Shown: positions 23,158 through 60,437 of the stretch, piece after piece
Numbering within the stretch: position 1 is the first letter of the stretch
Layout: each line of letters begins with the position of its first letter
From: an uncultured Bacteroidales bacterium
GTDB lineage: Bacteria; Bacteroidota; Bacteroidia; Bacteroidales; Paludibacteraceae
NCBI GenBank assembly: GCA_946404495.1
Contig: CAMJDT010000001.1
Coordinates: 25,962-89,961 of the forward strand
Length of the DNA: 64,000 nucleotides
Direction of reading: 5' to 3'
Program-made: the position numbers and the translations under genes
The notes under the pieces: model-generated
The model's input: only the letters and a program-made list of their open reading frames with translations
What the model was told of the DNA's origin: nothing
Database searches by the model: none

Positions 23158-23590
23158 GCTCGCCGAGTTAGCGGCGAGAGCAGAACCCACAGCAGGTCAT
23201 GGCGGCAAAAATGCCGCCAAATGAAACGCCTCACAGCGGGTGATGGCGGTAATCATACCGCCAAAGTGCACAATGAAACGCGCGGAGTTAAAGGCGAGAG
23301 CATAAATCAGCAGATTTATCGGGGACCCCGGAGCGGCGAGAGCAGAACCCACAGCAGGTCATGGCGGCAAAAATGCCGCCAAATGGAACGCCACATGGCG
23401 GATAATGGCGGTAATCATACCGCCAAAGTGCACAATGATGCTCGCCGAGTTAAAGGCGACCCCATAAATCAGCAGATTTATCGGGGACCCCGGAAGACGG
23501 GATGACGATGCTCGCCGAGTTAGCGGCGAGAGCAGAACCACGGGATGACGGGATACCGAAGAGAGACGGCAAGGAATGCCGTCTCTACGG
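23158..23590. repeat. Composite multi-hairpin repeat, copies in island 1
   Basis: 120-bp unit with stems CTCGCCG/CGGCGAG, TGGCGGCA/TGCCGCCA, TGGCGGTA/TACCGCCA; nested ataaatcagcagatttatcggggaccccgg; terminal hairpin AGAGACGGCA/TGCCGTCTCT. Confidence 0.9.
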
Positions 23591-23708
23591 GAGGCCGCGG
23601 ATTCTTCTACGGTATAACGGGATAACGTGATAACGGTATACCGAACGGCCGCGGTAATTTACGGGATACCGGGATAACGGGATAACGGGATACCGAACGG
23701 GCGGCGGA

Positions 23709-32700: not shown

Positions 32701-35700
32701 AATTTACCCACACAGAAACCTACACCACCGCCGGAACCGTAGGAGTAGTTATTAGCGAACAAAGAGTTGAAGCACGTACCCTCGTACATAAACATACCAC
32801 CGGCGAAGATTTGGTTTTGTGCGTCTTTTTTCGTACCATGGGTAGATGTATTATTGAGCACGAAGCAACCTTCAATCGTAGAGGTAGCACCATCGCAGAA
32901 CATACCGCCACCTTTCATGTTACGACTACCTGCCAGGTTATTAATCACGATACAGTTACGCAAGTGTGCCCCTTCGTACATGTTCACTCCGGCACCACCG
33001 CCATGTGCCATGGATTCATCGTAGATAAACCCGTGCCGAATGGTAAAACCATCCCAATTGACATGGTTGTATTCTACATAATGCGGATCCTCTTGCTTAG
33101 TGTACGTTGTAGCCGTTCGTTTGTCCTTACTGCTGCCTCTCACACGGTCGGTGTGGGATAAATTATCACCAAAATTAGTACCCAATGATACAGGGTCTCC
33201 GATACCACCACCGCCATACGTCGGTACGCACACATCCGGCATGGTCAATACGCGCTTACGAAGCGTCGTACGGTGAGTTTGAAGCGTATAAGTATTAGAT
33301 TCTGAAACTACCGGATCTTCAGGTGTTACATCTTCTTTATCTACTGTATTATCATCAGGATCTCCTACTTCTTCGTATGGTCCGGGGGTCACCGTCACCG
33401 GCTTGATATGAATATTTGAGAGCCAGAACTCACGACGGTTCGGGTTGTTTACAGCGAAATCTTTTTTATAACTTTGAGGTATCGGATCCGGGTCTCCACC
33501 CGTTATTGTCGGGCTTGTTGCACCATTAGCAGATGTATTACGCTCACCATCTTCCACTTCTACAGCTACACGTAAAGCTCCTTTTACCGGCTGATTGAAT
33601 GTAAGTACATGGCGATAGGCCATACCGCGGTTATTATCTTTATCATCGTTATTACCTATTGTCTTAATATTAGCCTCCGCACATTTCTTACCATTAGCAT
33701 TATATACTCGGAAATACATCTTTGTATTTTCCGGTGCAGAGAATTTATTACGATATCCACCTCCAATAAGTACTGATATTTGATAATTACCTGCCGGTAC
33801 ATCTGTCATGTCCTGCCATAAGATCAAATCTGTAAGAGAGCCGTTGCCGATAAAAATCCAGTTTCCAGTATAGGAGCCATCGGAACCCGCCAATTTCGTG
33901 TTCGTTAGCGGATCGTAGATGTTACGCTGCTTATTGTTGTTATTATTAGTATTCTCAATACCGACATCGTAGTTTGTTTTATCCGGGTATGACATGTGCC
34001 AACAATCCTTGCCATCCGCCACATTACCAAATCGCCATTTACGTCGATCATCAGTTACGCCTTCATTCGTCGCATCAGTAGAACTAACACTTTTACCGGC
34101 TGTACTACCGGTCATATTGGCATACTGCATATACGTATCCTGTACATCAGCACCTATTTCCACAATATCGGTATTGCTATAATGGTGTACAATCGTGCGG
34201 TTCTTATATTCGTACTGAGTGGTTTCTGTAAACTCGGAATACGAATAGTCATCATCCCAATACTTGACGGCATCGGTATTTATAGCCGTATTGCTGCTCT
34301 TGGGGTTGACCTCTGAAATCTGAAGAATCGTCTCATAATCCGCAGCATCAAAGTCAGCTGCAGGTTTCGCTTTAGGAATACTGATTACTTCCGACATCAA
34401 TGCCTGACGCTCTGACATAGCCGGTGCTGCAAATTTGCCGGCAGGGAAACCGCCGAATACCGTAACAGAGTCACGCATCACAAATCCCTTATAGTCGTTA
34501 TACGTACCTGCACCTACCCAGACTTGTATAGAGTCTTTATGTTCTGTTTTATTAAATGCAGACGCTTTCTCTACTGCATACTGAAGACCGCCCACATACC
34601 GCTCGGCACGTGTATTATTGATCCAACCGTTTGCTTTGCAGCCGGCTATAAAAGTATTCATGTCATAGGAGCCGGCTGTTCCCGTATAAGGGTTCGCTCT
34701 CCAGAACGTACGCGATGCACCGGAGATTTCTCCGTACGGATAGCGCAGGTCATAATCGTAACCGGGAACAAATCCCTCAGGGGTAGAACCGGGAGTGCTT
34801 ACCGTTTCGGAACTCTCGGAATAAACATCTTCTTGTATCGGATCTTCTTCGCCTGCTCTAGGACCATTGTCATATACTATCTTTTCAGTCGTCCATGTTT
34901 TGGTAACAGTGGTAGTAGAACTTCCTCCTGTCGTATTTCCTGTAATCCACACTCTACCCCAACCGCCGTTGTATTTGGAATTGGTGGTGAGGATCGGGTT
35001 GCCCTCGCTGTCGAGGACGCGGTCGCAGGTCGCTTCGGGATCGATTTGGTCACCGGTCGCGAGAGCAGGACCGGGGACAGAGGATAGCATATAGACGGTA
35101 TTACCGGCGATAGCGTTGCTCCAGGAGGAGCCGTCGCGGAGGCCGGCGCCGTCGGGGGTGACATAGATGACCGATCCGGCTGCAGGCAGGTCACTGTTCT
35201 CCACGGCACCGATATCGGGTGCACCGCCGCGGTCGCGCTTGAGTACATCACTGCGGTCGAACTCATTGAAGACCGAATAGGCATCGTGGTGGGCGGCATT
35301 GACGCAGGGGTTGGTAGTCATCGGTACATAGGCTACGATACCACCGTAAAGCGGCTTATCGCCCTCCGGCGCGTAACCTACATTACGCGAAGGATTGACA
35401 AAGGCAGGATAATTATGGTCGGTCAAAGTACGCGTGAAGATACAGGTGTTATGACGGCTGAGAGTATCAGGAGGTATGTTCGCTATATCCGCCGTAAAGT
35501 GCGACGTTACGCCGTCCGGAAGGAAACCGGAAATCATCGGGACTTCATAGCCTTCTAAAAAGAACCCATAAGGAGATTGACGGTCATCCCTGTGCAACTG
35601 CAGGTCTGCGTCGAACATATTATACATTCCGAACACATACTCCTGACCGTCCTTATTGACGGAGGTAACGTGGTAGGAGCCGTTGTCGAGCAAGGTAAAA

Positions 35701-38570
35701 TCCGCACAGGTGCGGTCGCCGTTGGAGTAGATAAGCGAGTTATCCACGCGGATATAGCCGTGGAAGGGCGTGAGGTCGGCATGTTCGGGGTGCGAACAGT
35801 GAATCGGATTGTCGCCATCGGTGGTCTTACTATCCGCCTTAAAGGGGAAGCCGACATTGTTGACCACAGTACAGTGCTCCATATGGATGTAGGCGCGGCC
35901 GTTGGCAGTGACGACGCCGTGGTCTTCGACTTCGGCATCGTGGATTACAAAGTCCGCCTTGTTGTTACGGATGATGCAGTTGACGAGCATCAGCTCGGCA
36001 TAGCATATCTCGCCGTCGTCTTTTGGGTACTCACCGTTGACATAGACGGCTGCGCCCTTAGGCGAGGTACAGTTGGTGATGACGCAGTTGCGCACCTGGT
36101 TGCCGACCATATTGATACGTCTGTCGGCGGGCGTTTTGAGGTTATTGATGAGCACACCGCCTCCGGCCATCGCCGAAGTGGAGCCGTATACATTGTGGGT
36201 GTTGGCATCGGAGAGGGTGAAACCGTCGACAATCGTGTGCTCCGCATTACCCATTACGATGACGTGACCGGCGTTGTTGTTATAGCCCGCCTCGCCCCCG
36301 ATACCGGTGATATTGGCGGTGATGATGGTCTTGGTAGCACGAGGATTTCGTCCCTCGGTATTGGTACCGGTCAGGGAGGAGGGATAGCCGCCATAGAGGC
36401 GCATACGACTCTCCATACGGATAGATGCCGAACGGATATTACGGTCGAGGTAGTTACCCGGGCCTACGGTATTGAGCGTACCCTCCTTGACGAGGATTTG
36501 GATGTAGCCATAGTTCGATGAGTCTCCCGTCGCCACATATTTACCATCTACAAGATCATAATTCGGAACTCGGTAATGATGGTTATCGCCATCATCATCG
36601 CGCAGGAACTGGCGGAAGAAAGAGATGGCCTCACCGAGGTCCTTGATCGGGGCATCCCAACTGAGACCCTCATATTCGGGTTCGACAAAGACGCCCTCAC
36701 CGTCGTACTGTCCGCGACGGTTGGGGTCCACAAAGAGTGTCGGGATCGGATCGAGACTACCTCCGTTACGTGCCTCCACACCTTGCGGCGGAATCAGCGC
36801 ATACATCATCGGGTCGGGACGACGCACGAGGGCGCCGAGGGTAGAAACAGGCTCGTAGGGGTTGGATACGACACCGTAGTCGGTGTGCGCGTGCTGCAAC
36901 CAGTAGGATACGTTCTGCATGGAGGTGTTCCACTGCACACCCTTCTGGTCCAAGGCCGAATAGGACGTCAAGTGCCAGATACGCGGACCCGGGATATCGA
37001 CTAAGCGCTTGAGGTGCATGAAGACACCCGGGCCGTGGATATTGTTCGCGCCGACGGTATCGAAGCGGTTCCAGTCGGTAGGATCGACGGTAGGCGAGAA
37101 GAAGCAGGGGAAGTTACCCGTACCGCCGCGGAGGGGCATATTGTGCTTCTCCAGAGAGAACACCATCTCCTTGGTCACACCCGTCCAGTCGGTGATATCG
37201 TGGTTCATGAAAGCCGTGTGGTAGACAAAGACCTCGTAGGCGGGGTTCGTCAGTTGGCGGACGGCAGCGAACTGGATATCGTTGTTGGTCTCGCAGCGGT
37301 TGCCCCAGAATACGGAGTTGAAGATCATACCGCAGTTGCGCACGTAGATACCGCCGGTACGGCCGTGACGGCGACCGTAGTAGGTGACGTCGGGTCCGGA
37401 GCAGTTGTTGGCCGTGACGGTACAATGGTTGACCGTACCGCCGTCAGCGAGGTAGATACCGCCGCCTTCGGCATTGGCGGTGTTGTTGTTGATGACGCAG
37501 GCGGTGGCATGCGGGCTATAGTAACTGATGGTATCCAGAGCCTCGATATCCATATGAGGGTAGTCATCGTCTGTATGACAGATCATCAGTCCGCCGCCGC
37601 AACGGGCTGCGCAGGAGGTAATGTGCGAATGACCGATGGAGCCGCCGTGGTCAATGCATACACCTCCTCCGTAGCCCTGTACGACGCCGACACCTGCCGA
37701 CTGGCAGGTATGCACGAAGCAGAATTCTATCTCACCGCCGCCGTCGGCGTAGATACCTCCGCCGCGAAGCGTAGCGTTGCAACGCTCGATGATACAGTTC
37801 TTCAAGTAGGAGTTGGGGATCATGTATACGCCTCCGCCGTAAGCCGTGTGGTCGCGCGTCGTGGTGTTGCGCGAGGAGGCGTTACCCGACGAGATGACGC
37901 AGCCGTCGAGGGATGCGGGGTTTTCGTGGGGTTTGTAGTGGTCGCCGACCTTATTGGTAGTAGCGAACCAGACGACGTGGAACGAACTGGCGGGGTACGC
38001 CGTGTTGTAACGTCCGCGGATGGAGTCGAAGGTAAAGGAGACGACGCCCGAAGCGTGGTTGCCGGTAAGGATCGTCTTATGCTTGAAATCCCACTGCGAG
38101 GCGATCTCCGTGCCGGAGGTGGTACCAATACCGTGGGGGTCGGCCCAGTTGTCCTTGCATTTCTTGCCGTTCGACATGATGCGGTCGCCGGGCGTCGGTT
38201 CGTTGAGTCGCGCGTAAGCCGTATCGGGGTTAAAGCCGCCGTAGACGTGGATACCCGAATAGATCTTAAACGAGGTATTGAGCATCGAACCGCCGGTGGA
38301 CTCCGTCGATTCGGTCGGCACGTAGGTACCCGCGGCGATATAGACCGAACCGGAGGTAAGATGGTAGGTATTCATGTACTCATACAGGTCGTTGATAGCG
38401 TCCTGCACGCGGTTCTTGGCCGTGGCCCACGACCTACCGTCGTTGTTGTAGGCACCCGAGGTACTGACATAGCGAATCGTATCCGTCTGGGCGAGGATAG
38501 GAGCGAGGTGAGCGGTCAGCAGGAGCAGCAGCACCGTGAGGATTCGTACTATGTATCTTAGGTCTTTCAT
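23709..38570 (-). CDS. Giant (4953 aa) secreted multi-module beta-helix protein, putative T9SS cargo/adhesin
   Basis: Signal peptide MKDLRYIVRILTVLLLLLTAHLAPILAQ; repeated start motif (YV...DG.SW..A...Q.AID) and end motif (DIGAYE-like); T9SS-like C-terminal domain. Confidence 0.85.
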   Translation of the reverse strand: MKDLRYIVRILTVLLLLLTAHLAPILAQTDTIRYVSTSGAYNNDGRSWATAKNRVQDAINDLYEYMNTYHLTSGSVYIAAGTYVPTESTESTGGSMLNTSFKIYSGIHVYGGFNPDTAYARLNEPTPGDRIMSNGKKCKDNWADPHGIGTTSGTEIASQWDFKHKTILTGNHASGVVSFTFDSIRGRYNTAYPASSFHVVWFATTNKVGDHYKPHENPASLDGCVISSGNASSRNTTTRDHTAYGGGVYMIPNSYLKNCIIERCNATLRGGGIYADGGGEIEFCFVHTCQSAGVGVVQGYGGGVCIDHGGSIGHSHITSCAARCGGGLMICHTDDDYPHMDIEALDTISYYSPHATACVINNNTANAEGGGIYLADGGTVNHCTVTANNCSGPDVTYYGRRHGRTGGIYVRNCGMIFNSVFWGNRCETNNDIQFAAVRQLTNPAYEVFVYHTAFMNHDITDWTGVTKEMVFSLEKHNMPLRGGTGNFPCFFSPTVDPTDWNRFDTVGANNIHGPGVFMHLKRLVDIPGPRIWHLTSYSALDQKGVQWNTSMQNVSYWLQHAHTDYGVVSNPYEPVSTLGALVRRPDPMMYALIPPQGVEARNGGSLDPIPTLFVDPNRRGQYDGEGVFVEPEYEGLSWDAPIKDLGEAISFFRQFLRDDDGDNHHYRVPNYDLVDGKYVATGDSSNYGYIQILVKEGTLNTVGPGNYLDRNIRSASIRMESRMRLYGGYPSSLTGTNTEGRNPRATKTIITANITGIGGEAGYNNNAGHVIVMGNAEHTIVDGFTLSDANTHNVYGSTSAMAGGGVLINNLKTPADRRINMVGNQVRNCVITNCTSPKGAAVYVNGEYPKDDGEICYAELMLVNCIIRNNKADFVIHDAEVEDHGVVTANGRAYIHMEHCTVVNNVGFPFKADSKTTDGDNPIHCSHPEHADLTPFHGYIRVDNSLIYSNGDRTCADFTLLDNGSYHVTSVNKDGQEYVFGMYNMFDADLQLHRDDRQSPYGFFLEGYEVPMISGFLPDGVTSHFTADIANIPPDTLSRHNTCIFTRTLTDHNYPAFVNPSRNVGYAPEGDKPLYGGIVAYVPMTTNPCVNAAHHDAYSVFNEFDRSDVLKRDRGGAPDIGAVENSDLPAAGSVIYVTPDGAGLRDGSSWSNAIAGNTVYMLSSVPGPALATGDQIDPEATCDRVLDSEGNPILTTNSKYNGGWGRVWITGNTTGGSSTTTVTKTWTTEKIVYDNGPRAGEEDPIQEDVYSESSETVSTPGSTPEGFVPGYDYDLRYPYGEISGASRTFWRANPYTGTAGSYDMNTFIAGCKANGWINNTRAERYVGGLQYAVEKASAFNKTEHKDSIQVWVGAGTYNDYKGFVMRDSVTVFGGFPAGKFAAPAMSERQALMSEVISIPKAKPAADFDAADYETILQISEVNPKSSNTAINTDAVKYWDDDYSYSEFTETTQYEYKNRTIVHHYSNTDIVEIGADVQDTYMQYANMTGSTAGKSVSSTDATNEGVTDDRRKWRFGNVADGKDCWHMSYPDKTNYDVGIENTNNNNNKQRNIYDPLTNTKLAGSDGSYTGNWIFIGNGSLTDLILWQDMTDVPAGNYQISVLIGGGYRNKFSAPENTKMYFRVYNANGKKCAEANIKTIGNNDDKDNNRGMAYRHVLTFNQPVKGALRVAVEVEDGERNTSANGATSPTITGGDPDPIPQSYKKDFAVNNPNRREFWLSNIHIKPVTVTPGPYEEVGDPDDNTVDKEDVTPEDPVVSESNTYTLQTHRTTLRKRVLTMPDVCVPTYGGGGIGDPVSLGTNFGDNLSHTDRVRGSSKDKRTATTYTKQEDPHYVEYNHVNWDGFTIRHGFIYDESMAHGGGAGVNMYEGAHLRNCIVINNLAGSRNMKGGGMFCDGATSTIEGCFVLNNTSTHGTKKDAQNQIFAGGMFMYEGTCFNSLFANNYSYGSGGGVGFCVGKFYNNSIVYNTCALEDTEIEGNKLNGGAIALATSSKPNLFVANTIIYGNNGRAIRERKSVKGTDIVHPFLNCYIQTEESFTQNTYKNNIVNYSEGSGYYGKGNVLLQEVPSAATTPFVADFDESGNYVAGRAASLNDFRLRDDVPCVNKGTEDFAGDLLDVLERKHSKTEAQVKEMPIYKNVEAAELPDNDVAFAKRVQDCQIDIGAYEFNAAYSIKPDTTTHPGRAIYYIAFDSPGGDASASSPANAACRQKLQLVLDAAGRYKHSLMTADLYNRGYTGDNIHDFESDKPNKYWTVEVWLEGDNTNSTTSNDYGAFYTPTRSTKYSIENYHDNTLDYSFIIPHGIHVRGGYTGNYYHFEMEDGTIVAAGTEGCHIVDERDPLTYRSVLSGKITSSTGAEGQCFHVVTFTNDLFRPDDEKWYEDNENKPIQNQLAALTSERDRAVVDGVFIEDGYANSPDHEDRLGAACVVTSYAHIRNCVIRNNRAQHYGGGLYLKPYALVSGTIVKENTAEVGGGIYVERPTDAQLAADSLARIFYSTICENTATASAGGMWFDNTYVRANSVAIWHNEANDNANVSGSFDRSDANTEYPFVCCAVESRRLEGQGNVELSPKETEGVRWDRQDPFNAILYYPIEMSSTLSRAGMTYREWDKFKKTFQTLDSVDIAGVSRKRWYQDDHRTRGYAWDKDTLITKNNSLIEIGARALNKNFAIVVDAEHVMYRLYVMHTDLINSEAARALQDNTNDDAISKMYRQMGSCILNPFHRLSDAFDYVIAARKADPQKYRNVRFEIFVEQGTYYPFHNAYGEQGSVRMNTFLIPEAVLIVGGVDSRPDDHKYGQEGFRSPFGSLNPKDKTYVGIAIGNGSNVVIPGTGYTINYALTDSIRLRDDRHRPMRDNNLNSVIEPWELERQTILSGNAVSGEDFTHVYHVVTCHADEKYVGPRPYKFMNVNPNYGKPGESYLKDSIPQKSESLFAQENDLSVVARSIGFDGLQITGGYANHLDQADYNEHAYVSKTYFRGGGIFVDGNWDDDFEDPSSPDIPNVTEPAAHNIPIVVENCFFTNNMAGNGGAIFSNGGIYAYGNHFTQNYSQGPMTKLDQDFIPWTAGGCIATNAFCGVSNSLFDNNEARRGLYPLRVKNPKEVIPDADARQGFGGCLSVSTQSRMRVVNCHFMKNKAVGYSAIYNFTPNSHYIGDKDHPKSDSMQYAFNTIFWGNEVFDIESIDELEYEEAPSEEAIEAFRDKYKPSRAGVFHYDGDEWATYERLYHEYDSIYNYWVAIEGAAVKEGGVVKPQGPFKKAVTDKLKELRAQGDKMEGMFFCSYRKTYGPTGMKPNEDGFLLMPDEWDNYVDPRKMNVRIKTVNRDTVENLDSLFTYVHGNNNTLINRINNATDGPNFKQPSFVAGIDGYMQNADWLLARMNLTTDQGWGHLTQTVGRDTAYYITKYTEKQQFATRADALTAAQAVNPSATQKDVYPVTGLPSATFDAVQPSPGAIYNFYARRYGQYMSDSNAPLPIGDQYYMSYTRSTSDEEESGSMDRISKQPKTGITDAFIDLGVYEYQYVQLDLKGQEIDTMWVATKTKDPIHHDGLTWETPTTDLQTAIDMLMSSHNDHDKYICFLGDDEGTFSPNNVLDNRRAFVITSSSLSPLMPDSAEADHDYGVGSLNFLGGYSFDVKDAPRDPLSHPVVVEMPYTGNANQLNQLFIIEDMTRQLVQVNWQGEYTSRDSVVIPVTFDGITFINPYSVKDSAAEEGGQMSKKGGAAIYYRWQRRYEDQGGVATPNMNFALHPDSALIDFSGTRRKVTLPKLTLSNCIFMDNGARDGVSKAKRSPAVRIDHGGGSSLIVNTLFHSNAGAPVYARTFDEVEGGNDLALVPNDVIIINSTSALNGGHIHLESDHSEVHNSLIWLDDLDNDTTIQLQLGADQWDKTTNRTREGIENRMTNNAVWGCFLPFVNSENGDPYHNHPLSTDNNDIYFGPGFISPFVTANDSEQRRSRSFRLNPSLRTMNMADTTLYRNRVFFRVYPDTCAATHNKLWRRSNGFKADYITALVNDSDLAAKPRISGEGMERGAYECLAVLQRVLYVQPSLPSYSAGDGSSWRSPFGQGQLQNAIDAAAVYTYLNRNQDLETRKAYVFVKGSYGSLERTTVTARDGVFVYGSLPNSFNDTAWIYEDPSTHQRSFTNDECQRYINYVRALSTGIATPTALNAGMRTRINSVQITGDEFNTGFLLDGFFITNPDGRHSSALGFAPVYIDNEKSAIRNCLITDNTFTDVPVADIRRGLLYNCLFYNDSASSIVRIGANGLSLNNTIVADNEDVTPLLNEATADAVQNTLYGQRDTLHCFAPYLTDNTPHKLPAFLTNNTALGFQLHEHSSRINAGVADDALPAVFDDYVSDSTIAFRHDRDLLGNPRKIGSQVDVGAFETWRIEPKTVVELTALTNREPITQSNAALKKCAFLSHYGGNMYPHPGSVCYLMDSSAVTLQYSDPLDFRDFNDNAIILSPGYVLLKRGASFYGNGHELKFAYLAAERPFHLQRYAMTAFPFSYSTDNITVSTYAAAGDTLTLTSHLSPITFTTYRYNGVARSAKDYVFQTDNSSLWTPIDTVNRTATEGYLIDFGSSVDTVLRFTSFASEGGKYVYTESDHDKTVYLNQYDNRTAGSGASLNFTRQEDMGWNMKGLPWLVSNYRTDTTLYEDNYLRQMFIPHVMYLMNADGTYLKDEQIYALRSWDKGAMLSLGNAFLTQTATKNSREGVIFHLPYYGHNEKASRPILRLANARGEGDVLTAIPDSAADKNVRYSYGRDGLKWSTLTEHPEIYLMDQQRTSRLSLLGATPIEVDIPLGVSIPEKLPSTIGPESKMYVSSPNAQMEKDFTFSLPEKEAYMDYGYVWLIDYDRNRYTNLLSEDYTVSLEPGEHLTRFAIRIGGYPLTDEKGNRQYIVYQYDGTLYVRGLIPGDYIALYTSTGQLVCRATATGTEFTYPLPYQSGYVVRVNRTAHKVLYH

Positions 38571-44333: not shown

Positions 44334-45512
44334 CTATCGCGAAATCCAGTCCGTAGGGGTCATTCCGGTCTCGCGACGGAAGATGCGACCGAACACGGTC
44401 GGCGACGAGAATCCGGAGCGATCGGCCACCTCCTGGAGCTGCATAGTGGGGTTCTCTTCCATGAGTCGCTTTGCCTCGCGGATGCGGTAGTCGGTGACGA
44501 ACTGATAGAACGAGCAGCCGTACTCCATATTGATAAATTTGGAGAGATAGGTGCGATTCATAGGCAGCACCTCCATCAGATCCACGAGGCAGAAATCTTT
44601 GTTCAGATACGGTTTCTCCTTATCCATCCAGGCCTCGAGGCGTGCTTTCGACTCCAGGAAATGCTGATCTTGCTCCTTTGGCTCCACTTCAACCTCAACG
44701 TCGTTCGTTTCCCGCCAAGGCGCCTTACGGCAGACGATCTGCAGGATATTGTAGATCAGGATAGCCAAGATGAGCCATTGTTGGGTAAAGAGGCGCGTGG
44801 GGTGCGAGGAGAAGCAGAGGTAGAAATACGAGAAGCCGATGACGATGAGACTCATGAGGTAGATATCGATCCATTTCATGGCGCTGTTCTCCAGCGAGGA
44901 GTAGTAGTCCTCGCAGCGCTCTTGGTAGACGCGGATATGCGCAAAGAGGATACCGGCGATGATGAGGGGATAGACGATCAACAGCGCGCGCAAGTCGACC
45001 TCCGACCATTTGTCCAGCGCCCAAATCAGGAACGCAGGCAGCACCAGCAGGAGTCCCCTCCACCATTTCAGCCATTTGGGATAGAGCACCTCCATCGGAT
45101 AGGCCAAAAGGAGGATGGCAAACACATTGCGCACTACCATATCCAAAGAAGTAATCGTTTGGACGCCGGAGACGATAGTCGATATACCAAATCCCTTCTC
45201 CAGCGTGAAGAAGACGAACTCCAATACCGCCCACCACACGAGCGAGCGGGCAAATGCTTTACGCGCGGGTATATCATAGGAGTGCCGAAAAACGAGTATC
45301 GCTCCTACGACGGATACCACAAAAAAGGCCGTGTGAAAAAGCGGGCTGATGAGGTTCTCAAACGTGTCTACGGGAATGAGGCGGGAGAGGATGTGACTCG
45401 CTATCACTACGCCCGTAAGCAAAAATCCGAACAAAATCAGATTTCCGTAGTCGAAAATAAACTTGCGGAACCTATTTTGGGTTTTAATAGTACAATTTTC
45501 CGATGTATTCAT
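44334..45512 (-). CDS. Membrane-anchored AraC family transcriptional regulator
   Basis: N-terminal TM helices; C-terminal HTH: LSKFINMEYGCSFYQFVTDYRIREAKRLMEENPTMQLQEVADRSGFSSPTVFGRIFRRETGMTPTDW. Confidence 0.93.
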   Translation of the reverse strand: MNTSENCTIKTQNRFRKFIFDYGNLILFGFLLTGVVIASHILSRLIPVDTFENLISPLFHTAFFVVSVVGAILVFRHSYDIPARKAFARSLVWWAVLEFVFFTLEKGFGISTIVSGVQTITSLDMVVRNVFAILLLAYPMEVLYPKWLKWWRGLLLVLPAFLIWALDKWSEVDLRALLIVYPLIIAGILFAHIRVYQERCEDYYSSLENSAMKWIDIYLMSLIVIGFSYFYLCFSSHPTRLFTQQWLILAILIYNILQIVCRKAPWRETNDVEVEVEPKEQDQHFLESKARLEAWMDKEKPYLNKDFCLVDLMEVLPMNRTYLSKFINMEYGCSFYQFVTDYRIREAKRLMEENPTMQLQEVADRSGFSSPTVFGRIFRRETGMTPTDWISR

Positions 45513-45670: not shown

Positions 45671-45960
45671 GCTCGCCGAGTTAAAGACGACCCCATAAAT
45701 CGACAGATTTATCGGGGACCCCGGAGCGGCGAGAGCAGAACCCACAGCAGGTAATGGCGGCAAAAATGCCGCCAAATGGAACGCCTCACAGCGGGTGATG
45801 GCGGTAATCATACCGCCAAAGTGCACAATGATGCTCGCCGAGTTAAAGACGACCCCATAAATCAGCAGATTTATCGGGGACCCCGGCACGGCGAGAGCAG
45901 AACCCACAGGATGACGGGATAACGGGATACCGAAGAGAGACGGCAAGGAATGCCGTCTCT
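45671..45960. repeat. Composite multi-hairpin repeat, copy in island 2a
   Basis: Same unit as 23158-23590, with 42-bp nested modules after both gctcgccgagtta motifs and the terminal AGAGACGGCA/TGCCGTCTCT hairpin. Confidence 0.92.
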
Positions 45961-46015
45961 ACGGGGAGCCGGGGCAACCGGATCGAAAATGGAAGGGGAA
46001 AGGAGGCCACCGAGT

Positions 46016-46074
46016 ACGTGTCGACTACGTGTCGTTTACGTCTCGTTTACGTGTCGTTTACGTGTCGTTTACGT
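46016..46074. repeat. 11-bp tandem array (ACGTGTCGTTT)
   Basis: acgtgtcgact acgtgtcgttt acgtctcgttt acgtgtcgttt acgtgtcgttt acgt. Confidence 0.95.
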
Positions 46075-46200
46075 AATTTTCGGCGAAAAAGGCCGTAAAA
46101 AGGGGGTTCGCGGGATAACGAGATGTCGAGATATCGAAGTTACGAGATCTCGAGGTGTCGACAGCGGCCGTACGGGATAACGAGATAACGGGATAACAGT

Positions 46201-46355
46201 GCTCGCCGAGTTAGCGGCGAGAGCGGAACCCACAGCAGGTAATGGCGGCAAAAATGCCGCCAAATGGAACGCCTCACAGCGGGTGATGGCGGTAATCATA
46301 CCGCCAAAGTGCACAATGATGCTCGCCGAGTTAGCGGCGAGAGCAGAACCCACAG
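46201..46355. repeat. Composite multi-hairpin repeat, minimal copy
   Basis: Direct repeats gctcgccgagttagcggcgagagc(g/a)gaacccaca at 46201 and 46321 (120 bp apart) bracket the two TGGCGG hairpins; no 42-bp insert. Confidence 0.92.
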
Positions 46356-46539: not shown

Positions 46540-47151
46540 ATGATAGAATATATTCGTGGAAAGATGACGGAGCTGATGCCGACGACGGCGATCGTGGAGG
46601 CGGCAGGCGTGGGATATGAGATTCATATCGCGCTGCCTACGTACTCGGCGCTATTGGATAAGGAGGAGGTAAAGCTCTACGTAGAGGAGATCATCGCGGA
46701 AGACTCGCACCGATTGTTCGGATTCGGGAGCAAAGGCGAGCGGGAGATCTTCCGTCAGTTGATATCGGTAAGCGGCATCGGAGCCAACACGGCTCGGATG
46801 ATCCTATCTGCCTATACAGCGGCAGAGCTGAGGCAGATCATCGCTACGGGCAACGTACGGGCATTGGGTCAGGTGAAAGGCCTCGGTCCGAAGACGGCGC
46901 AGCGCATCATCGTGGACCTGAAGGATAAGGTGCTGAAGATCGAGTTGGGCGAAGAAGGCGGAGGCAAAGTGATGCCGGCCGATGTGCTGTTTGCGCCGGA
47001 GACGAACCCGATCAAGGAGGAGGCGGTAAGCGCGCTGACGATGTTGGGATTCGCAGCCGCAGCCAGCAGTAAGGCCGTGGATAAGATCCTGAAGGCGAAT
47101 CCGGGGGCACATGTAGAGGCGGTGATAAAGGAGGCGCTGAAGATACTATAA
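46540..47151 (+). CDS. ruvA: Holliday junction branch migration protein RuvA
   Basis: MIEYIRGKMTELMPT, LISVSGIGANTARMILS, VKGLGPKTAQRIIVDLKDK. Confidence 0.96.
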   Translation: MIEYIRGKMTELMPTTAIVEAAGVGYEIHIALPTYSALLDKEEVKLYVEEIIAEDSHRLFGFGSKGEREIFRQLISVSGIGANTARMILSAYTAAELRQIIATGNVRALGQVKGLGPKTAQRIIVDLKDKVLKIELGEEGGGKVMPADVLFAPETNPIKEEAVSALTMLGFAAAASSKAVDKILKANPGAHVEAVIKEALKIL

Positions 47152-47185: not shown

Positions 47186-47380
47186 AAAGGGATAACGAGA
47201 TAACGACAGCGGCCGTTCGGAATAACGAGATCTCGAGGTCTCGAGGTCTCGAGATATCGACAGCGGCCGTTCGGGATAACGGGATACCGGGATAACGGGA
47301 TAACGACAGCGGCCGTTCGGGATAACGGGATACCGGGATAACGGGATACCGTAAAAAAAATCCGGCCGCACGAGATAACG
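47186..47380. repeat. 8-mer GGGATAAC / GANNTCGA / CAGCGGCCG repeat tract
   Basis: Repeated cgacagcggccgttcgggataacgggataccgggataacgg and gatctcga ggtctcga ggtctcga gatatcga. Confidence 0.9.
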
Positions 47381-47407: not shown

Positions 47408-50400
47408 TTGCAGAGAATTCGATATATCATAGTATTGGTGCTGTTGGTGTTCTGCGCGGGCGCGCGAGCTCAGGTGGTAGAAGGCGACAGCGTGCATGTG
47501 GAGCCGCAAGGACAGATGATCGAGCATCCACGTAGCGGATACGAGATGGATAACTACGACCAGTTGTCCCAGCCGAAGACGAACCTCGACCTGGAGCAGC
47601 CGGATAATATGCAGACGACGGTGGAGTACGATCCGCTGACGGGCTACTATGTGCTGCGCACAAAAATGGGCGATGTGGACGTAGTGACGCCGTATATGAT
47701 GACGGAGAGCGAGTACAAGCAGTACTCAGAGCAGCAGTTGATGCAGAAATACCGCCAGCAGAAGCTGAGCGAGGTGGAGCACGACAACGAGAAGAAGTTC
47801 GATATCACGGACATGAAATTCAATATCGGCCCGGCGGATAAGATCTTTGGTCCCGGCGGCGTGCAGCTGAAGTTGCAAGGAAGCGCGGAGCTATTGTTCG
47901 GCTTCAAGCATCAGTTTGTGGACAACCCCTCGCTCACGGAAAGGGCCAGGAATAACAATATCTTCGACTTCGACGAGAAGATTCAGGCCAACGTACAGGG
48001 AAGCGTGGGTCAGAAGTTGAAGTTCAACCTGGCGTACAACACCGAGGCCTCGTTCAGCTTTGACCAACAGAATATCAAGCTCTCGTACAAGGGTCAGGAG
48101 GACGATATACTGCAGTCGATCGAGGCGGGAAATGTGAGTCTCGATTTGAACTCCTCGCTTATACGCGGCAGTCAGGCCTTGTTTGGCGTGAAGGCCGATC
48201 TGAAGTTCGGCAAACTGAAGGTGCAGGCGCTTATCTCGCAGCAGAACAGCGAGGCGCAGACGGTAGGCAGCGAGGGCGGTGCGCAGATGACCAAATTTGA
48301 GATCGAGGCCGACCAGTACGACGAGAACAAGCACTTCTTCCTGGGCTATTTCTTCCGCGACAGCTACGAGAAGTCGATGGAGTCGCTGCCGTACGTAGCG
48401 AGCGGCGTGACGATCAACCGAATAGAGGTGTGGGTCACCAATAAACGCGGTAACTACGAGCAGGCGCGAAACTTAGTTGCCTTCTCCGACTTAGGAGAGA
48501 ACAGCAGCAAGCATATACACGGCAATACGGCCTTCACCACGACGGGCTATCCGCGTCCGGACAACCGCGCCAACACGCTCTACGACCAGATCAAGGACGT
48601 ACCGGAGGTACGCGACCTGCAACAGGTGAATGCCTACCTGCAGTCGATGGAGAGCAGTTGGGGGATAGTCGGCGGCGAGGACTACGAGAAAGTGGAGTCC
48701 GCGAGGATGCTGAACAGCGGCGAGTACAGCCTCAACTCCGCATTGGGATATATCAGCCTGAAGACGGCGCTGAATCAGGACGAGGTGCTGGCCGTAGCGT
48801 ACGAATATACGGCAGGCGGTCAGGTGTACCAGGTAGGTGAGTTCTCCACGGACATCACCGACAGCACGACGCAGCGTGCCAAGGCTCCGACGCTGATACT
48901 GAAACTGCTACGCAGTTCCAACAACGCCCCGCACGGCTATAATGCGGCTCGTCCGACGGATAAGTACGGCACGTGGGACCTGATGATGAAAAACATCTAC
49001 AACTTAGGTGCCAGCACGATGTCGAGCGATAAATTCGAATTGTACGTCATGTACCGCAACGACTCGATCGGTACGACATTGCAGTACCTGCCGGAGGGTC
49101 CGGTGAAGGGTACGCAGCTGCTGCGCGTATTGGGACTCGACCGATTGGACAGCAAGAATAACCCGAACCCCGACGGACGCTTCGACTACATAGAGGGCTA
49201 CACGGCTCTGTCGTCATCGGGACGCATCATCTTCCCCGTGCTGGAGCCCTTCGGCAGCTATCTGGCGCAGAAATTGGGTTCGGACAAGAGTCTGGCGGAT
49301 AAGTACTGCTTCCAGGAGCTGTACGACTCGACGCTGATCGTAGCGCAGGAGATGTCGGAGAAGAACAAGTTCCGCCTGAAAGGTCGCTACAAAGGCACGA
49401 ACGGCAGCGAGATACGACTCAATGCGATGAACGTGCCGCGCGGAAGCGTGACGGTGACGGCCGGCGGCGCGACGCTGACGGAGAACGTGGATTACACCGT
49501 GGACTATGCAATGGGAGTTGTGACGATACTGAACCAGAGCATATTGGAGAGCGGCACGAACGTGCAAGTGAAGTTGGAGAACCAATCTACGTTCTCGATG
49601 CAGCGTAAGGGATTGTACGGCACGCATTTGGAGTATCAGTTCAATAAGGACTTCATGATCGGCGGATCGCTGATGTACCTGCATGAGAAGGCATTGACGA
49701 CGAAGGTCAACTCGGGTAGCGAGCCTCTGTCGAACCTGGTGTGGGGGTTGAACCTCAACTACAGGACGGAGATGCAGTGGTTGTCGAACGCCATAGATCA
49801 GATCCCGTGGATCGATGCCAAGGCGCCGAGTACGTTCCAGATCAGCGCTGAGTTTGCGCAACTGGTACCCGGTCACACCCGCGAGGTGGGCAAACTCGGA
49901 ACGGCGTATATCGATGACTTTGAGAACACCAAGACGTCGATAGACGTGCATTACCCGGGTTACTGGCAGCTGAGTTCGACGCCTACCGTACCGAACGGCA
50001 GCGCTATCGACGCGAAGCGGCCGTTCCTGGCGGACGGACAGAAGAGCAACGTAGCGGCCTACAACAGGAACAGGGCGCTGCTGTGCTGGTACACCGTGGA
50101 CCCGATCTTCGGTCACCCGCAGACCAATACGCCGAAGCATATCAAGGACGATCCGAACCTGATGTCGGACCACCGCACGCGTATCGTCTATCAGCAGGAG
50201 ATCTATCCCAATAAGGAGGTGCTGGCCAACGAGGATACGCGAATGACGATCCTGAATCTGAGTTTCTACCCCAAGGAACGCGGTCCGTACAATATCTCGG
50301 CGAGCGAGATCAACAGTCAGGGAGAGCTGACCAACCCGCGCCAGCGGTGGGGCGGTATGATGCGCAAGCTGGACAACACCGACTTTGAGAAAGCCAATAT

Positions 50401-53400
50401 CGAGTACCTGGAGTTCTGGCTGATGGATCCGCAGCTGACCAACTACGAGGGCTTCGACGGCGGTGACCTGTACATCGACCTCGGCGATATCAGCGAGGAT
50501 ATACTGCGCGACGGAAAGAAGAGCTTTGAGCACGGTCTGCCGCTCAACGAAGACGAGAGCACAGTCGAGGGAACCATTTGGGGCCGCGTGCCTCGCACGA
50601 CCTCGACGACGATCGCTTTCTCCAACGAGGCGGGTGCGAGAGAGAAACAAGACGTAGGTCTGAACGGTCTGAGTACGGAGATGGAGTACACCTACAGCTA
50701 CGACGGCAAGCGGCCGTACGGCGACTATGTGGATTCGCTAAGGACGATCGTGACCGACCCCGATGTGATTGCAAGATGGAACGCCGACCCCTTCTCGCCC
50801 TTCAACGACCCGGGCGGCGATAACTTCCACTACTACCGCGGCGAGGACTACGACCAGCAGGAGACGCCAATCCTGGTGCGCTACAAGCGCTACAACGGTA
50901 CGGAGGGCAACTCGCCGGAGTCGAGCGCGGGTTCGGACTACGGTCGCGCCTCCACCCTGACGCCTGATATCGAGGATATCAACAAGGATAACACGCTCAA
51001 TGAGTACGAGAAATACTACGAGTTCCACGTCAGCCTGCGTCCGGAAGACCTGTACGTAGGCAACCAGTGCATCGCCGAGGAGATGATCTCCAGCGTGACG
51101 CTCAAGAACGGCGAGCAGACACAAGTGAAGTGGTACCAGTTTAAGATACCTATTCACAACGACTCGATCGCGAAGAAGGTAGGTTCGATCCGTAACTTCA
51201 AGTCGATACGGTTCATGCGCATGTACATGACGGGCTGCGCCGACGAGACGCATATCCGTCTGGCAACGCTGGATCTGGTACGCGGCGACTGGCGCAGCTA
51301 CACGAAGGGTCTGCGGAAGGACTCCCTCACCAACCGCTGCAACCTACCCTCGCTCAACAACGCCTCGTTTGATCTGCAGGCTGTGAGCATCGAGGAGAAC
51401 GGCAGCCGTCAGCCGGTGAACTACATCTTGCCGCCGGGACTGTCGCGTCAGACCGACCCCGGGCAGGCTCAGCTCATCGCGCAGAACGAGCAGTCGATGG
51501 TCATCCGCGTGCATAACTTGCTCTATAACGACGCCCGCGCCGTGTATAAGAAGACCACCTTCGATATGCGTAACTACAAGCGCCTGCAGATGTTCGTACA
51601 CTGCGAGGCCAATGCCAACGACGCAACGCCGATCGAGGACGGCGACCTGAGTTGCTTCATAAGACTGGGTAGCGACATGGTCAATAACTACTACGAATAC
51701 GAGGTACCGCTGAAGCTGACGCCGGCAGGTGTCTATAACAACGACAACCAGAACGACCGGCAAATCGTCTGGCCGGACGAGAACTCGTTTGACATACTGC
51801 TGAGCGCGCTGACGAAGGCCAAGAACGACCGTAACTACGCGAAGCGCAGCGGCGATCAGAACGTAGGCAATACGATACCCTACGTGGTCTACGACACCGA
51901 CAACGGCTTCCCCGACAATAAGATCACCGTAATGGGTAATCCGACCCTGGAGGAAGTGGATAATATACTGATCGGTGTACGCAACCGCGGCCGGCATCAG
52001 TCGGATGGCGTGAACGGTGAGGTGTGGGTCAACGAGCTGAGACTGAGCGAATACAACGAGTCGGGCGGTGTGGCCGCGATGGCCAATGCCGCACTCGGCA
52101 TCAGCGATATCGCGCAAGTGAACGTAGCAGGCCACATCGAGACAGCCGGCTACGGAAGTATCGAGAGCAATGTGCTGAGCCGCAATATGGAGGACTACTA
52201 CCAGGTAGCCGTCAGCGCGGCCCTCGAGTTAGGACGACTCTTCCCCGAAAAAGCCCGCCTGCATATACCGCTCTACGCCAGCTATTCCAACGAGACGCGC
52301 TCGCCGCTGTACGACCCGCTCGACACCGACGTACGCCTCAAGGATAACCTCGAGACCTACCAGACCAAGGCCGAGAAAGACTCCGTCAAGACGATGTCGA
52401 ACACCGTGCAACAGGCTACCTCGTTCTCGGTGACCAACATGAAAGTGGATATCCACTCCAAGAAGCAGGATATGTTCTACGACCCGGCCAACTTCTCCAT
52501 CTCCGCCTCGTACAACGACCAGCGGTTGCACTCGCCCGAACTGGAGCAAGACCGCAGCACGGAGCACAGGGGATCGTTCCAATACTCCTTTAACTTCAAC
52601 CCCAAGCCCTGGGAGCCGTTTAAGAAAGTGGAGAAGGTGAAGAACGTGAAGGCACTGAGCGAATTCAATATCTTCTACCTGCCGCAGTCGTGGGGATTCA
52701 ATACCAACATGCGGCGAACGTTCACGCACCTGAAGATGCGCGACTTCAACCAGCCTACCGGTGAGGGAACGGACAAACTCGACATCACCTTCTCCAAGGA
52801 CTTCACCTGGGATCGTAACTTCGACTTCAAGTACGATCTGACGAAAAACATGAAGTTCACCTTCCAGACGGCAATGAACTCGACCGTAGACGAGGGTTAC
52901 TACACGCCGGAGATCATCCGCGACTATAGCATGACGAACGACGTATACGAGGCCTGGAAAGATACCATCAAGCGCTCGATGAAGACTTGGGGTACGCCGT
53001 ACACCTACTCGCAGGTGTTCACCGCGTCGTGGAACGTGCCGTTCAACCGCGTGCCGTACCTGGAGGCGCTGTCGGTGAATGCGTCGTACAACGCTACCTA
53101 CACCTGGAACCGTACCGTGCAGGCCGCCAACGCCACGACCAACTTGGGTAACACCGTCTCGTCCACGCGTGCATGGCAGGCCGACGGACAGCTCAACCTG
53201 GAGACCCTGTACGGCAAGTCGAAGTACTGGAAGAGCTTGAACCAACGCATGTCGGCCCGCAAGAACACGCGTCCCTTCAAGCCCAAGAACTACTCGCAGA
53301 CCGTGGACCTCACGGCCAATACGCCTGCCGAGATCAACCACCGGCTGGGATCGGAGACGCTGATCGTGACCGTGACGGACAGCGCGGGCAAGAGTGTGCC

Positions 53401-54946
53401 CTTTAAGTTCGCACCCGCCGGCAACGCCAAGATCACCGTGACGACCAAGACCAATGTGAAGGGTGCCGTGATTGCTATCACGACGCGCGACCCGAACCAA
53501 CGCACGCCGGCGGAGAAGGCGATGGATTTTGCCGCCTACTTCGGTACGATGATACGCCGCGTGCAGGTGACCTACCGTGCGACCAACTCGATGACCGTGC
53601 CGGGCTTCCAGCCCTTGGTAGGATTCATGGGACAGAAACGCATCGACGGCTACTACGCACCGGGCTTTGACTTCGCCTTCGGCGTATTCGACGACTCGTT
53701 TATCGACAAAGCCAAGTCACGCGGCTGGTTGTCGGGTTCGGACTCGATCGTCCAACCCGCCCTCTCGGCGCGCACGGCCGACTTCGACTATAAGGTATCG
53801 CTCGAGCCCTTCCCGGGATTCAAGATCCAGCTCAACGGTAAGCGTTACGAGGCAGAGAGCACGTCGGTCATCTACAGCTACGACCAGATGCAGTACAACC
53901 GCACGGGTTCGTTTAATATCACGACGCTCGCGCTGACGACCGCCTTTACCAAGATCGGCGACGCGGAGACCAACTTCCACTCCAATGACTTCGTCACCTT
54001 CCTCGAGAACCGCGATATCATGCGACAGCGCGTACAGCAACGCTACGAGAACGTATCGTACCCTGTCGGCGGATTCATCCCCGTAGGACTGCAGGGACAG
54101 AAGTACAACGCCGCCAACGGAGGCGTGAGCCGTAACTCGGCCGATGTGCTGGTGCCCGCCTTCCTGGCGACCTACCTCGGCAGAGATATCAACAAGGCGA
54201 ACTATAATCCGTTCCTGGGCCTCTTGCAGGCACTGCCGAACTGGAACGTGACCTTCGACGGCTTGGGACGCTTGCCGTGGATCAAGGACCACTTTAAGTC
54301 GGTCAACCTCACGCACGCCTACACCTGTAAGTACGCCATCGGTTCGTACGGCACCTTCTCCACCTGGATGAGCGCCGACAAAAACGATCCCACGATCGGT
54401 TTCACCCGCGACGTAGTGAGCGGCAACCCCGTGCCCTCGTCGTCGTACGACATCGCATCGATCAGCATCACCGAGGCGTTCTCACCGCTGATCGGACTGA
54501 ACATGACGATGAAGAACTCGCTGATGCTCAAGTTTGAGTACCGCAAGCAAAGGAACCTGACGATGAACATCACCTCCGTGCAACTCACCGAAGGTCACAC
54601 CAACGAGTTCGTCATCGGCGCCGGCTATACCATCAAGGATCTGAGCTTCACCGCCAAGACCAAGAACGGCGGACAGAAGAAGGTGTCGAACGATCTGAAA
54701 CTCAACGTCGATGTATCGTATAAGAATATTATGACACTGCTGAGAAAGGTGGAGGAAGACCTGACGCAGGCCTCGAACGGCAATAAGGTGTTCACGCTGA
54801 AGATCTCGGCCGACTACGTGCTGTCGCAGAAGATCAACCTGCAACTCTTCTACGACCACCAGGGAACTATTCCGCTTATCTCGTCGTCCTACCCCGTCAA
54901 GGCGGACAACGTCGGATTGAACATTAAAATTATGCTAACGCGATGA
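47408..54946 (+). CDS. sprA: T9SS outer membrane translocon protein SprA/Sov
   Basis: 2512 aa; LNLSFYPKERGPYNISA, YIDDFENTKTSIDV, ETLYGKSKYWKSLN; located after ruvA. TTG start. Confidence 0.95.
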   Translation: MQRIRYIIVLVLLVFCAGARAQVVEGDSVHVEPQGQMIEHPRSGYEMDNYDQLSQPKTNLDLEQPDNMQTTVEYDPLTGYYVLRTKMGDVDVVTPYMMTESEYKQYSEQQLMQKYRQQKLSEVEHDNEKKFDITDMKFNIGPADKIFGPGGVQLKLQGSAELLFGFKHQFVDNPSLTERARNNNIFDFDEKIQANVQGSVGQKLKFNLAYNTEASFSFDQQNIKLSYKGQEDDILQSIEAGNVSLDLNSSLIRGSQALFGVKADLKFGKLKVQALISQQNSEAQTVGSEGGAQMTKFEIEADQYDENKHFFLGYFFRDSYEKSMESLPYVASGVTINRIEVWVTNKRGNYEQARNLVAFSDLGENSSKHIHGNTAFTTTGYPRPDNRANTLYDQIKDVPEVRDLQQVNAYLQSMESSWGIVGGEDYEKVESARMLNSGEYSLNSALGYISLKTALNQDEVLAVAYEYTAGGQVYQVGEFSTDITDSTTQRAKAPTLILKLLRSSNNAPHGYNAARPTDKYGTWDLMMKNIYNLGASTMSSDKFELYVMYRNDSIGTTLQYLPEGPVKGTQLLRVLGLDRLDSKNNPNPDGRFDYIEGYTALSSSGRIIFPVLEPFGSYLAQKLGSDKSLADKYCFQELYDSTLIVAQEMSEKNKFRLKGRYKGTNGSEIRLNAMNVPRGSVTVTAGGATLTENVDYTVDYAMGVVTILNQSILESGTNVQVKLENQSTFSMQRKGLYGTHLEYQFNKDFMIGGSLMYLHEKALTTKVNSGSEPLSNLVWGLNLNYRTEMQWLSNAIDQIPWIDAKAPSTFQISAEFAQLVPGHTREVGKLGTAYIDDFENTKTSIDVHYPGYWQLSSTPTVPNGSAIDAKRPFLADGQKSNVAAYNRNRALLCWYTVDPIFGHPQTNTPKHIKDDPNLMSDHRTRIVYQQEIYPNKEVLANEDTRMTILNLSFYPKERGPYNISASEINSQGELTNPRQRWGGMMRKLDNTDFEKANIEYLEFWLMDPQLTNYEGFDGGDLYIDLGDISEDILRDGKKSFEHGLPLNEDESTVEGTIWGRVPRTTSTTIAFSNEAGAREKQDVGLNGLSTEMEYTYSYDGKRPYGDYVDSLRTIVTDPDVIARWNADPFSPFNDPGGDNFHYYRGEDYDQQETPILVRYKRYNGTEGNSPESSAGSDYGRASTLTPDIEDINKDNTLNEYEKYYEFHVSLRPEDLYVGNQCIAEEMISSVTLKNGEQTQVKWYQFKIPIHNDSIAKKVGSIRNFKSIRFMRMYMTGCADETHIRLATLDLVRGDWRSYTKGLRKDSLTNRCNLPSLNNASFDLQAVSIEENGSRQPVNYILPPGLSRQTDPGQAQLIAQNEQSMVIRVHNLLYNDARAVYKKTTFDMRNYKRLQMFVHCEANANDATPIEDGDLSCFIRLGSDMVNNYYEYEVPLKLTPAGVYNNDNQNDRQIVWPDENSFDILLSALTKAKNDRNYAKRSGDQNVGNTIPYVVYDTDNGFPDNKITVMGNPTLEEVDNILIGVRNRGRHQSDGVNGEVWVNELRLSEYNESGGVAAMANAALGISDIAQVNVAGHIETAGYGSIESNVLSRNMEDYYQVAVSAALELGRLFPEKARLHIPLYASYSNETRSPLYDPLDTDVRLKDNLETYQTKAEKDSVKTMSNTVQQATSFSVTNMKVDIHSKKQDMFYDPANFSISASYNDQRLHSPELEQDRSTEHRGSFQYSFNFNPKPWEPFKKVEKVKNVKALSEFNIFYLPQSWGFNTNMRRTFTHLKMRDFNQPTGEGTDKLDITFSKDFTWDRNFDFKYDLTKNMKFTFQTAMNSTVDEGYYTPEIIRDYSMTNDVYEAWKDTIKRSMKTWGTPYTYSQVFTASWNVPFNRVPYLEALSVNASYNATYTWNRTVQAANATTNLGNTVSSTRAWQADGQLNLETLYGKSKYWKSLNQRMSARKNTRPFKPKNYSQTVDLTANTPAEINHRLGSETLIVTVTDSAGKSVPFKFAPAGNAKITVTTKTNVKGAVIAITTRDPNQRTPAEKAMDFAAYFGTMIRRVQVTYRATNSMTVPGFQPLVGFMGQKRIDGYYAPGFDFAFGVFDDSFIDKAKSRGWLSGSDSIVQPALSARTADFDYKVSLEPFPGFKIQLNGKRYEAESTSVIYSYDQMQYNRTGSFNITTLALTTAFTKIGDAETNFHSNDFVTFLENRDIMRQRVQQRYENVSYPVGGFIPVGLQGQKYNAANGGVSRNSADVLVPAFLATYLGRDINKANYNPFLGLLQALPNWNVTFDGLGRLPWIKDHFKSVNLTHAYTCKYAIGSYGTFSTWMSADKNDPTIGFTRDVVSGNPVPSSSYDIASISITEAFSPLIGLNMTMKNSLMLKFEYRKQRNLTMNITSVQLTEGHTNEFVIGAGYTIKDLSFTAKTKNGGQKKVSNDLKLNVDVSYKNIMTLLRKVEEDLTQASNGNKVFTLKISADYVLSQKINLQLFYDHQGTIPLISSSYPVKADNVGLNIKIMLTR

Positions 54947-60337: not shown

Positions 60338-60437
60338 TGTCGTTGGTCGTTGGTCGTTTCGGGATAACGGGATAACGGGATACCGGGATACCGAAATCCG
60401 ATAACCTATCACCTATCACCTATCACCAATCACCTTT
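60338..60437. repeat. Heptamer and octamer arrays between exonuclease and dnaN
   Basis: tgtcgtt ggtcgtt ggtcgtt; gggataac x2, gggatacc x2; cctatca-type heptamers ending caccaatcaccttt at the dnaN stop. Confidence 0.9.

Follow-up and report, generated by a model that had tools for sequence, protein, structure and literature searches.

The closest described relatives of the repeats analyzed here are the REP elements and REPtrons of TnpAREP/RAYT transposases, short multicopy hairpins that flank an HUH/Y1 transposase gene and also lie in frame between its HuH and Y motifs, according to Quentin et al. (2018; PMC6006769) and Nunvar et al. (2010), cited there. In-frame REPs in this position have been published for TnpAREP subclass 2.4, frequent in Bacteroidetes (PMC6006769). 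Intergenic arrays in which several hairpin types form tandem mosaics are known as BIMEs or REPINs, and intragenic GTAG/CGTC REPs have been described inside ORFs, among them tRNA synthetase and repair genes (Di Nocera et al. 2013; PMC3733652). Rickettsia palindromic elements (RPEs), of 105 to 146 bp (PMC2229807), occur in frame in unrelated conserved proteins as well as in intergenic regions (Ogata et al. 2000, reviewed in PMC2229807; RPE-4 and RPE-6 in PMC3733652).

The window analyzed here, a 64,000-nt stretch of a 2.13-Mb genome bin (G000) from the family Paludibacteraceae, contains two intergenic arrays that are mosaics of REP-like hairpins. They resemble BIMEs and REPINs but mix hairpins associated with two transposase clades and additionally include a palindrome, M, that sits in the loop of one of the hairpins, H. 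The likeness to REPtrons extends to multicopy hairpins that flank a transposase gene and lie in frame inside it. However, the feet of the hairpins, AGCAGAACC/GGTTCTGCT or, often, AAGTGCACAA, differ from GT[AG]G, the proteins have a long C-terminal part, and the loop of one element is occupied by a second hairpin that also exists independently. The motifs of the proteins read DHIH and YxxDNP, those used to place a TnpA in subclass 2.4 being NH[IFV]H and YIxNNP. In comparison with the GTAG/CGTC REPs, the host belongs to Bacteroidota, no GTAG/CGTC tag was seen, and the structure is nested. M behaves like an RPE in that conserved proteins of unrelated kinds contain it in frame and intergenic copies exist as well, but it is a 39-bp insertion (in ValS), its Paludibacteraceae hosts belong to a different phylum, it has no recognized sequence relation to RPEs, and it is located among GGYGA repeats and nested within a further mobile hairpin; because of the differences in size and host, we do not file it under RPEs. 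Mobile hairpins of related kinds are known, whereas the nesting of one inside another appears undescribed in the open-licence literature searched, where no precedent was found for either nested REPs or coding palindromes of Bacteroidota.

Hairpin arrays and H+M composites

The arrays (23158-23540 and 45671-46350) consist of tandem H, B, and C hairpins (Table 1), with a unit of 120 bp, or 162 bp where H holds an extra 42 bp. The 45-kb array has as neighbors an AraC-type regulator gene (44334-45512, minus strand) and ruvA (46540-47151, plus strand).

Table 1. Hairpin features of the two arrays (window coordinates)
Feature	Position	Strand	Details
Intact H+M composite	45671..45745	+	Foot AGCAGAACC; outer arms CTCGCCG 45672-45678 and CGGCGAG 45727-45733; loop start AGTTA 45679-45683
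42-bp module M	45684..45725	+	Stem CCCC-ATAAATC / GATTTAT-c-GGGG
Intact H+M composite, second copy of array	45833..45907	+	M at 45846-45887
Chimeric H+M composite	23278..23350	+	Outer arms non-pairing; GAGAGC in place of CCCC; M at 23291-23332
H+M composite truncated on the right	23440..23494	+	No right outer arm; M at 23453-23494
Clean H hairpin and foot	23159..23187	+	CTCGCCG(agttag)CGGCGAG, foot AGCAGAACC
Clean H hairpin and foot	23511..23539	+	
Clean H hairpin and foot	46202..46230	+	AGCGGAACC
Clean H hairpin and foot	46322..46350	+	
Hairpin B	23200..23219	+	TGGCGGCA(aaaa)TGCCGCCA; also 23362-23381, 45755-45774, 46243-46262
Hairpin C	23244..23263	+	TGGCGGTA(atca)TACCGCCA, foot AAGTGCACAA; also 23406-23425, 45799-45818, 46287-46306

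The first-pass annotation had described the extra 42 bp as two adjacent palindromes inserted at one fixed site in four copies of a hairpin. The block indeed lies directly after AGTTA, in a loop that reads AGTTAG in clean copies, and the positions in Table 1 differ from those reported earlier by 0 to 1 nt. The length of 42 bp holds for the window copies and for two composites on contig C29 but not for the copy on contig C58, which has 41 bp. All four window copies contain the block; only the two in the 45-kb array are intact composites, the others being a chimera with outer arms CGCGCGG/CGGCGAG and a truncated copy that runs into AAGACGGGATGACG where the right outer arm would stand. The two palindromes did not survive folding as single-stranded DNA, which gives one bulged 11-bp hairpin for the block; in the folded intact composite, this hairpin is nested in an outer stem of 7 bp (-14.4 kcal/mol, z -3.6), and CGGGGACCCCG represents an alternative pairing within the block.

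Outside the window, G000 has about four more copies: two are the C29 composites, one is the composite on C58, and the fourth, on C17, is degenerate. Copy counts for this genome rest on pattern and BLAST searches; a 30-base pattern with up to 3 mismatches had 8 matches, versus 0 for the reversed-pattern control. Among 300 genomes of the family, H+M was found in G000 only, in 7 pattern-matched copies. The nested stem is ATAAATC/GATTTAT in all seven and in none of the standalone M copies found, and six of the seven share the left junction AGTTA-AAGRCGACCCC.

Several other repeats accompany the arrays. In both, the H/B/C units are followed by an extra hairpin, AGAGACGGCA(aggaa)TGCCGTCTCT (23562-23586 and 45936-45960), and short tandem repeats of the type GTGTCGTTTAC are found at 46018-46080, downstream of the array. 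Satellites of the octamer CGGGATAA occupy window positions 23610-23695, 47272-47351, and 60360-60393, as well as positions 2805 and 3995 of locus L241; the same unit forms TATCCCG(ggataa)CGGGATA hairpins, in the same orientation, at both ends of the tnpA region of contig C17. The arrays are adjoined by very long open frames of 4953 codons (23709-38570, minus strand) and 2512 codons (47408-54946, plus strand).

Hairpin H and its candidate transposase

H has a 7-bp stem, a 6-nt loop, and the foot GGTTCTGCT (reverse AGCAGAACC). We tabulated 26 copies in G000, mostly outside genes but in part intragenic, and found clean H in 11 of 131 sampled genomes of the genus, including G000. No H+M was found in the 10 further genomes, not all of which belong to the 300-genome sample searched for H+M. 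The suggestion that the clean form is a deletion derivative of the composite is, as a general explanation, rejected on these grounds.

Three proteins encoded in G000 (on contigs C5, C17, and C29) contain the motifs DHIH and YxxDNP, which are HuH and Y motifs of the class 2 type. Their best NCBIfam match is in each case REP_Tyr_transpos (NF047646), with 35 to 41 bits against a cutoff of 80. The Pfam Y1_Tnp model recovers two of the three genes, one of them under the cutoff, and a protein query was therefore used in place of this too insensitive model; it detected TnpA homologs in 93 of the 131 genomes. The stretch between HuH and Y is rich in hairpins: there are 40 among 24 tnpA genes, carried by 22 of them, whereas codon-shuffled versions average 0.7, and coding controls of 6.5 kb (upstream) and 8.6 kb hold 2 each. 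In a tree of the conserved parts of TnpA, clade A has hairpins with an 8-bp stem and a 4-nt loop in 15 of 16 rows, clade B has hairpins of the 7-bp/6-nt type in 5 of 6, and clade C has other geometries. The foot is AGCAGAACC/GGTTCTGCT in clade B and often AAGTGCACAA in clade A. The C29 protein falls in clade B, matching the geometry of H, and those of C5 and C17 fall in clade A, whose genes contain hairpins of the same 8-bp/4-nt geometry as hairpins B and C of the window.

In four species (represented by C29 of G000 and by genomes G154, G167, and G272), tnpA is flanked by H-type hairpins, contains them, or both; the foot is nearly constant, and the stems vary. As judged from sequence, H behaves as the cognate repeat of an HUH/Y1 REP-associated transposase. 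It acts in the manner of a REP and occupies REPtron-like loci, but the canonical GT[AG]G was looked for at its foot and not found, and we therefore call it REP-like. A series of five H-type hairpins, spaced by 36 bases, is found at the 3' end of tnpA in G167 (L291, 1467-1630); the stems alternate and the foot stays constant, so that stem turnover can be followed well in this natural series.

M does not track TnpA. Co-occurrence of the two across the genus is uninformative, since TnpA is present in 93 of 131 genomes, and G213, which has M but no TnpA match at 1e-8, is a counterexample. In the other M-bearing genomes inspected (G261, G197, and contig C35 of G154), no M was found in the TnpA loops; the TnpAs there are of a more distant type.

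M outside H

M also occurs on its own, in G000 and in eight other genomes (9 of 300 in the family, all from the genus of the window), which disposes of the possibility, raised in the first-pass annotation, that the module never exists independently. G000 has 12 standalone copies with the bulged CGGGG arm, namely, 11 exact matches to CCCCANAAATCNNNNGATTTNTCGGGG and a near match at C33:314. A DNA-pattern scan of named genomes found M almost only in Paludibacteraceae or Bacteroidales bins, mostly from ruminant guts, several of the matches being, by position, loci of the same-genus sample (e.g., G118:C5:3645 and JAFYMG010000003, L135:3645). The exact standalone stems are all AAAAATC/GATTTTT, except that two relatives' PyrF genes have GATTTGT; the difference from the ATAAATC/GATTTAT of the composites is a paired change.

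At most standalone copies, the reading frame of the host gene stays open through M. In G000, M lies in frame in the genes for HemW, RlmB, NrnA, CoaE, and a family 2 glycosyltransferase, and in relatives in those for ValS (at two sites), IleS, MutS2, PyrF, and others. Translated on its two strands, the palindrome gives PQKSADFSGT and PEKSADFWG; APQKSADFSGTP and GDPKNQQIFRGSP are predicted peptides of ValS and HemW that would span the insert. At the second ValS site, 39 bp located between AGGCGA(A/T)A units are present in G118 and absent from its close relative G306. ValS residues 207-238 and most of residues 757-781 have no counterpart in the solved ValS structure 1gax.

GGYGA stands on both flanks of M at 27 of 42 loci outside G000, versus 1% of random positions. 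MITEs and IS200-IS605 derivatives are marked by defined cleavage sites or by a target-site duplication at terminal repeats; M has GGYGA on either side, but the empty ValS site already holds a tandem GGCGA. The closing pairs around M covary (GC/GC, AC/GT, and TC/GA), which is suggestive, albeit with exceptions and among copies that are not independent of one another. We interpret M as an older, independent, frame-tolerant palindrome of this genus, and an RPE-like coding palindrome has hereby been found in housekeeping genes of Bacteroidota.

Origin and spread of the composite

The tnpA gene of C29 and its ortholog in G154 have products that are 85% identical over the alignment (gaps included). 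What sets them apart is a 111-bp in-frame insertion in G000, equivalent to 37 residues, that carries H+M. The length of M, 42 = 3 x 14, preserves the frame, as in this copy. Directly upstream of the gene, at the same position and with nearly the same foot, G154 has a clean H with the stem CGACCGG and G000 an H with the stem CTCGCGG, so H stems are replaced wholesale.

We consider, with a probability of about 75%, that H is the cognate element of the clade B TnpA encoded on C29 and that the separate element M entered it, probably once, after which the two spread as a unit. Hairpins B and C would belong to the clade A TnpAs of C5 and C17. M would be a palindromic element that moves into stretches rich in GGYGA and that proteins tolerate in frame, in RPE-like fashion. 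In this lineage it would have entered a copy of H at AGTTA|...GGCGA, and H+M may then have reached intergenic arrays, the side of the tnpA gene, and the reading frame of that gene as single-stranded DNA, presumably through the action of TnpA on the outer hairpin and foot. From the REPtron organization we infer that the C29 TnpA drives this spread, and we likewise infer the manner in which M first entered H. The C13:15772 locus, which reads AGTTAAAGGCGAGAGC, could be an excision product; if it is instead the pre-insertion form, the 42 bp would be made up of 37 bp and a 5-bp duplication of GGCGA.

The modular assembly proposed in the first-pass annotation is supported by M being found alone and in a second hairpin context and by H being found alone in ten further genomes. 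The other option offered there, namely that site-specific insertion of M into the AGTTA loop has recurred, would account for M occupying the same position in H hairpins with two different stems, CTCGCCG and CGACCGG, both of which are also known in clean form (at C60:674 and upstream of tnpA in G154), and these two stems could reflect two nesting events. However, all seven composites come from one genome and have a private inner stem, the junction is largely common to them, and the composite has moved as a unit; wholesale replacement of stems at an orthologous position means that one nesting followed by a stem change suffices. One nesting, or very few, with subsequent coamplification is therefore the simpler account, and entry of M into H once or rarely, followed by spread of H+M as a unit, is the most likely course; repeated insertion looks improbable. 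Of the earlier claim of a fixed site, the constant position after AGTTA stands, and it fits the usual neighborhood of M, since GGYGA flanks M and the right arm of H contains GGCGA.

Somewhat less improbable than repeated insertion, though still unlikely as a full explanation, is the formation of composites by template switching or slippage of replication at hairpins, with no transposase and with arrays growing by recombination between repeats. Chimeric arms (at 23278 and C29:3770), truncated copies, the GGCGA direct repeats around M, and the tandem 120- and 162-bp units all point to such events, but they would leave unexplained why single copies are dispersed in frame among unrelated genes, why hairpin geometry is clade specific, and why tnpA genes are flanked by hairpins. 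Template switching or slippage is likely a contributing process and not the whole story. Retention of M and H+M as functional RNA or DNA structures (a terminator, an mRNA stabilizer, or a protein binding site), rather than as selfish mobile elements, could be read from the strong folding, the intergenic arrays, and the conserved bulged stem. We regard it as very improbable, as close relatives differ in the presence or absence of copies, in-frame copies lie in many unrelated genes, other species hold different simple repeats at the same ValS sites, and Rfam had no match in the eight related loci scanned (the window lay outside that scan).

More tentatively, M may be a hitchhiker with its own mobilizer, which would target GGYGA-rich or hairpin DNA, so that nesting in H lends it the mobility of the transposase while it also adds in-frame peptides to essential proteins; if true, this would make H+M a two-level mobile element. 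As a mobile hairpin that bears another mobile hairpin in its loop and comes with natural pairs of filled and empty sites, H+M makes it possible to test directly whether a REP transposase accepts cargo in the loop of its hairpin, and thereby how change and growth of REP families come about.

Two further observations concern sequences related to M or to its sites. At the same two loops of ValS (L247-L265), species differ in the simple repeats or hairpins that they hold in frame, the fillers including TTGACAATTGACAG, TTCAGGAGTTCAG, CAATTAGCAATTA, and CTCTCCC...GGAGAGGG; filling of these loops by species-specific sequence is thus a phenomenon wider than M. In addition, about eight loci of G000 (L086, L087, L089, L090, L091, L094, L096, and L098; several lie close to the end of a contig) combine a bulge-less M (CCCCAAAAATCnnnnGATTTTTGGGGACCCC) with a structure of approximately 80 bases, which in several loci reads CCGAGATCGC..GTCGAT..ATCGAC..GCGACTCGG; the combination is another hairpin-in-hairpin composite.
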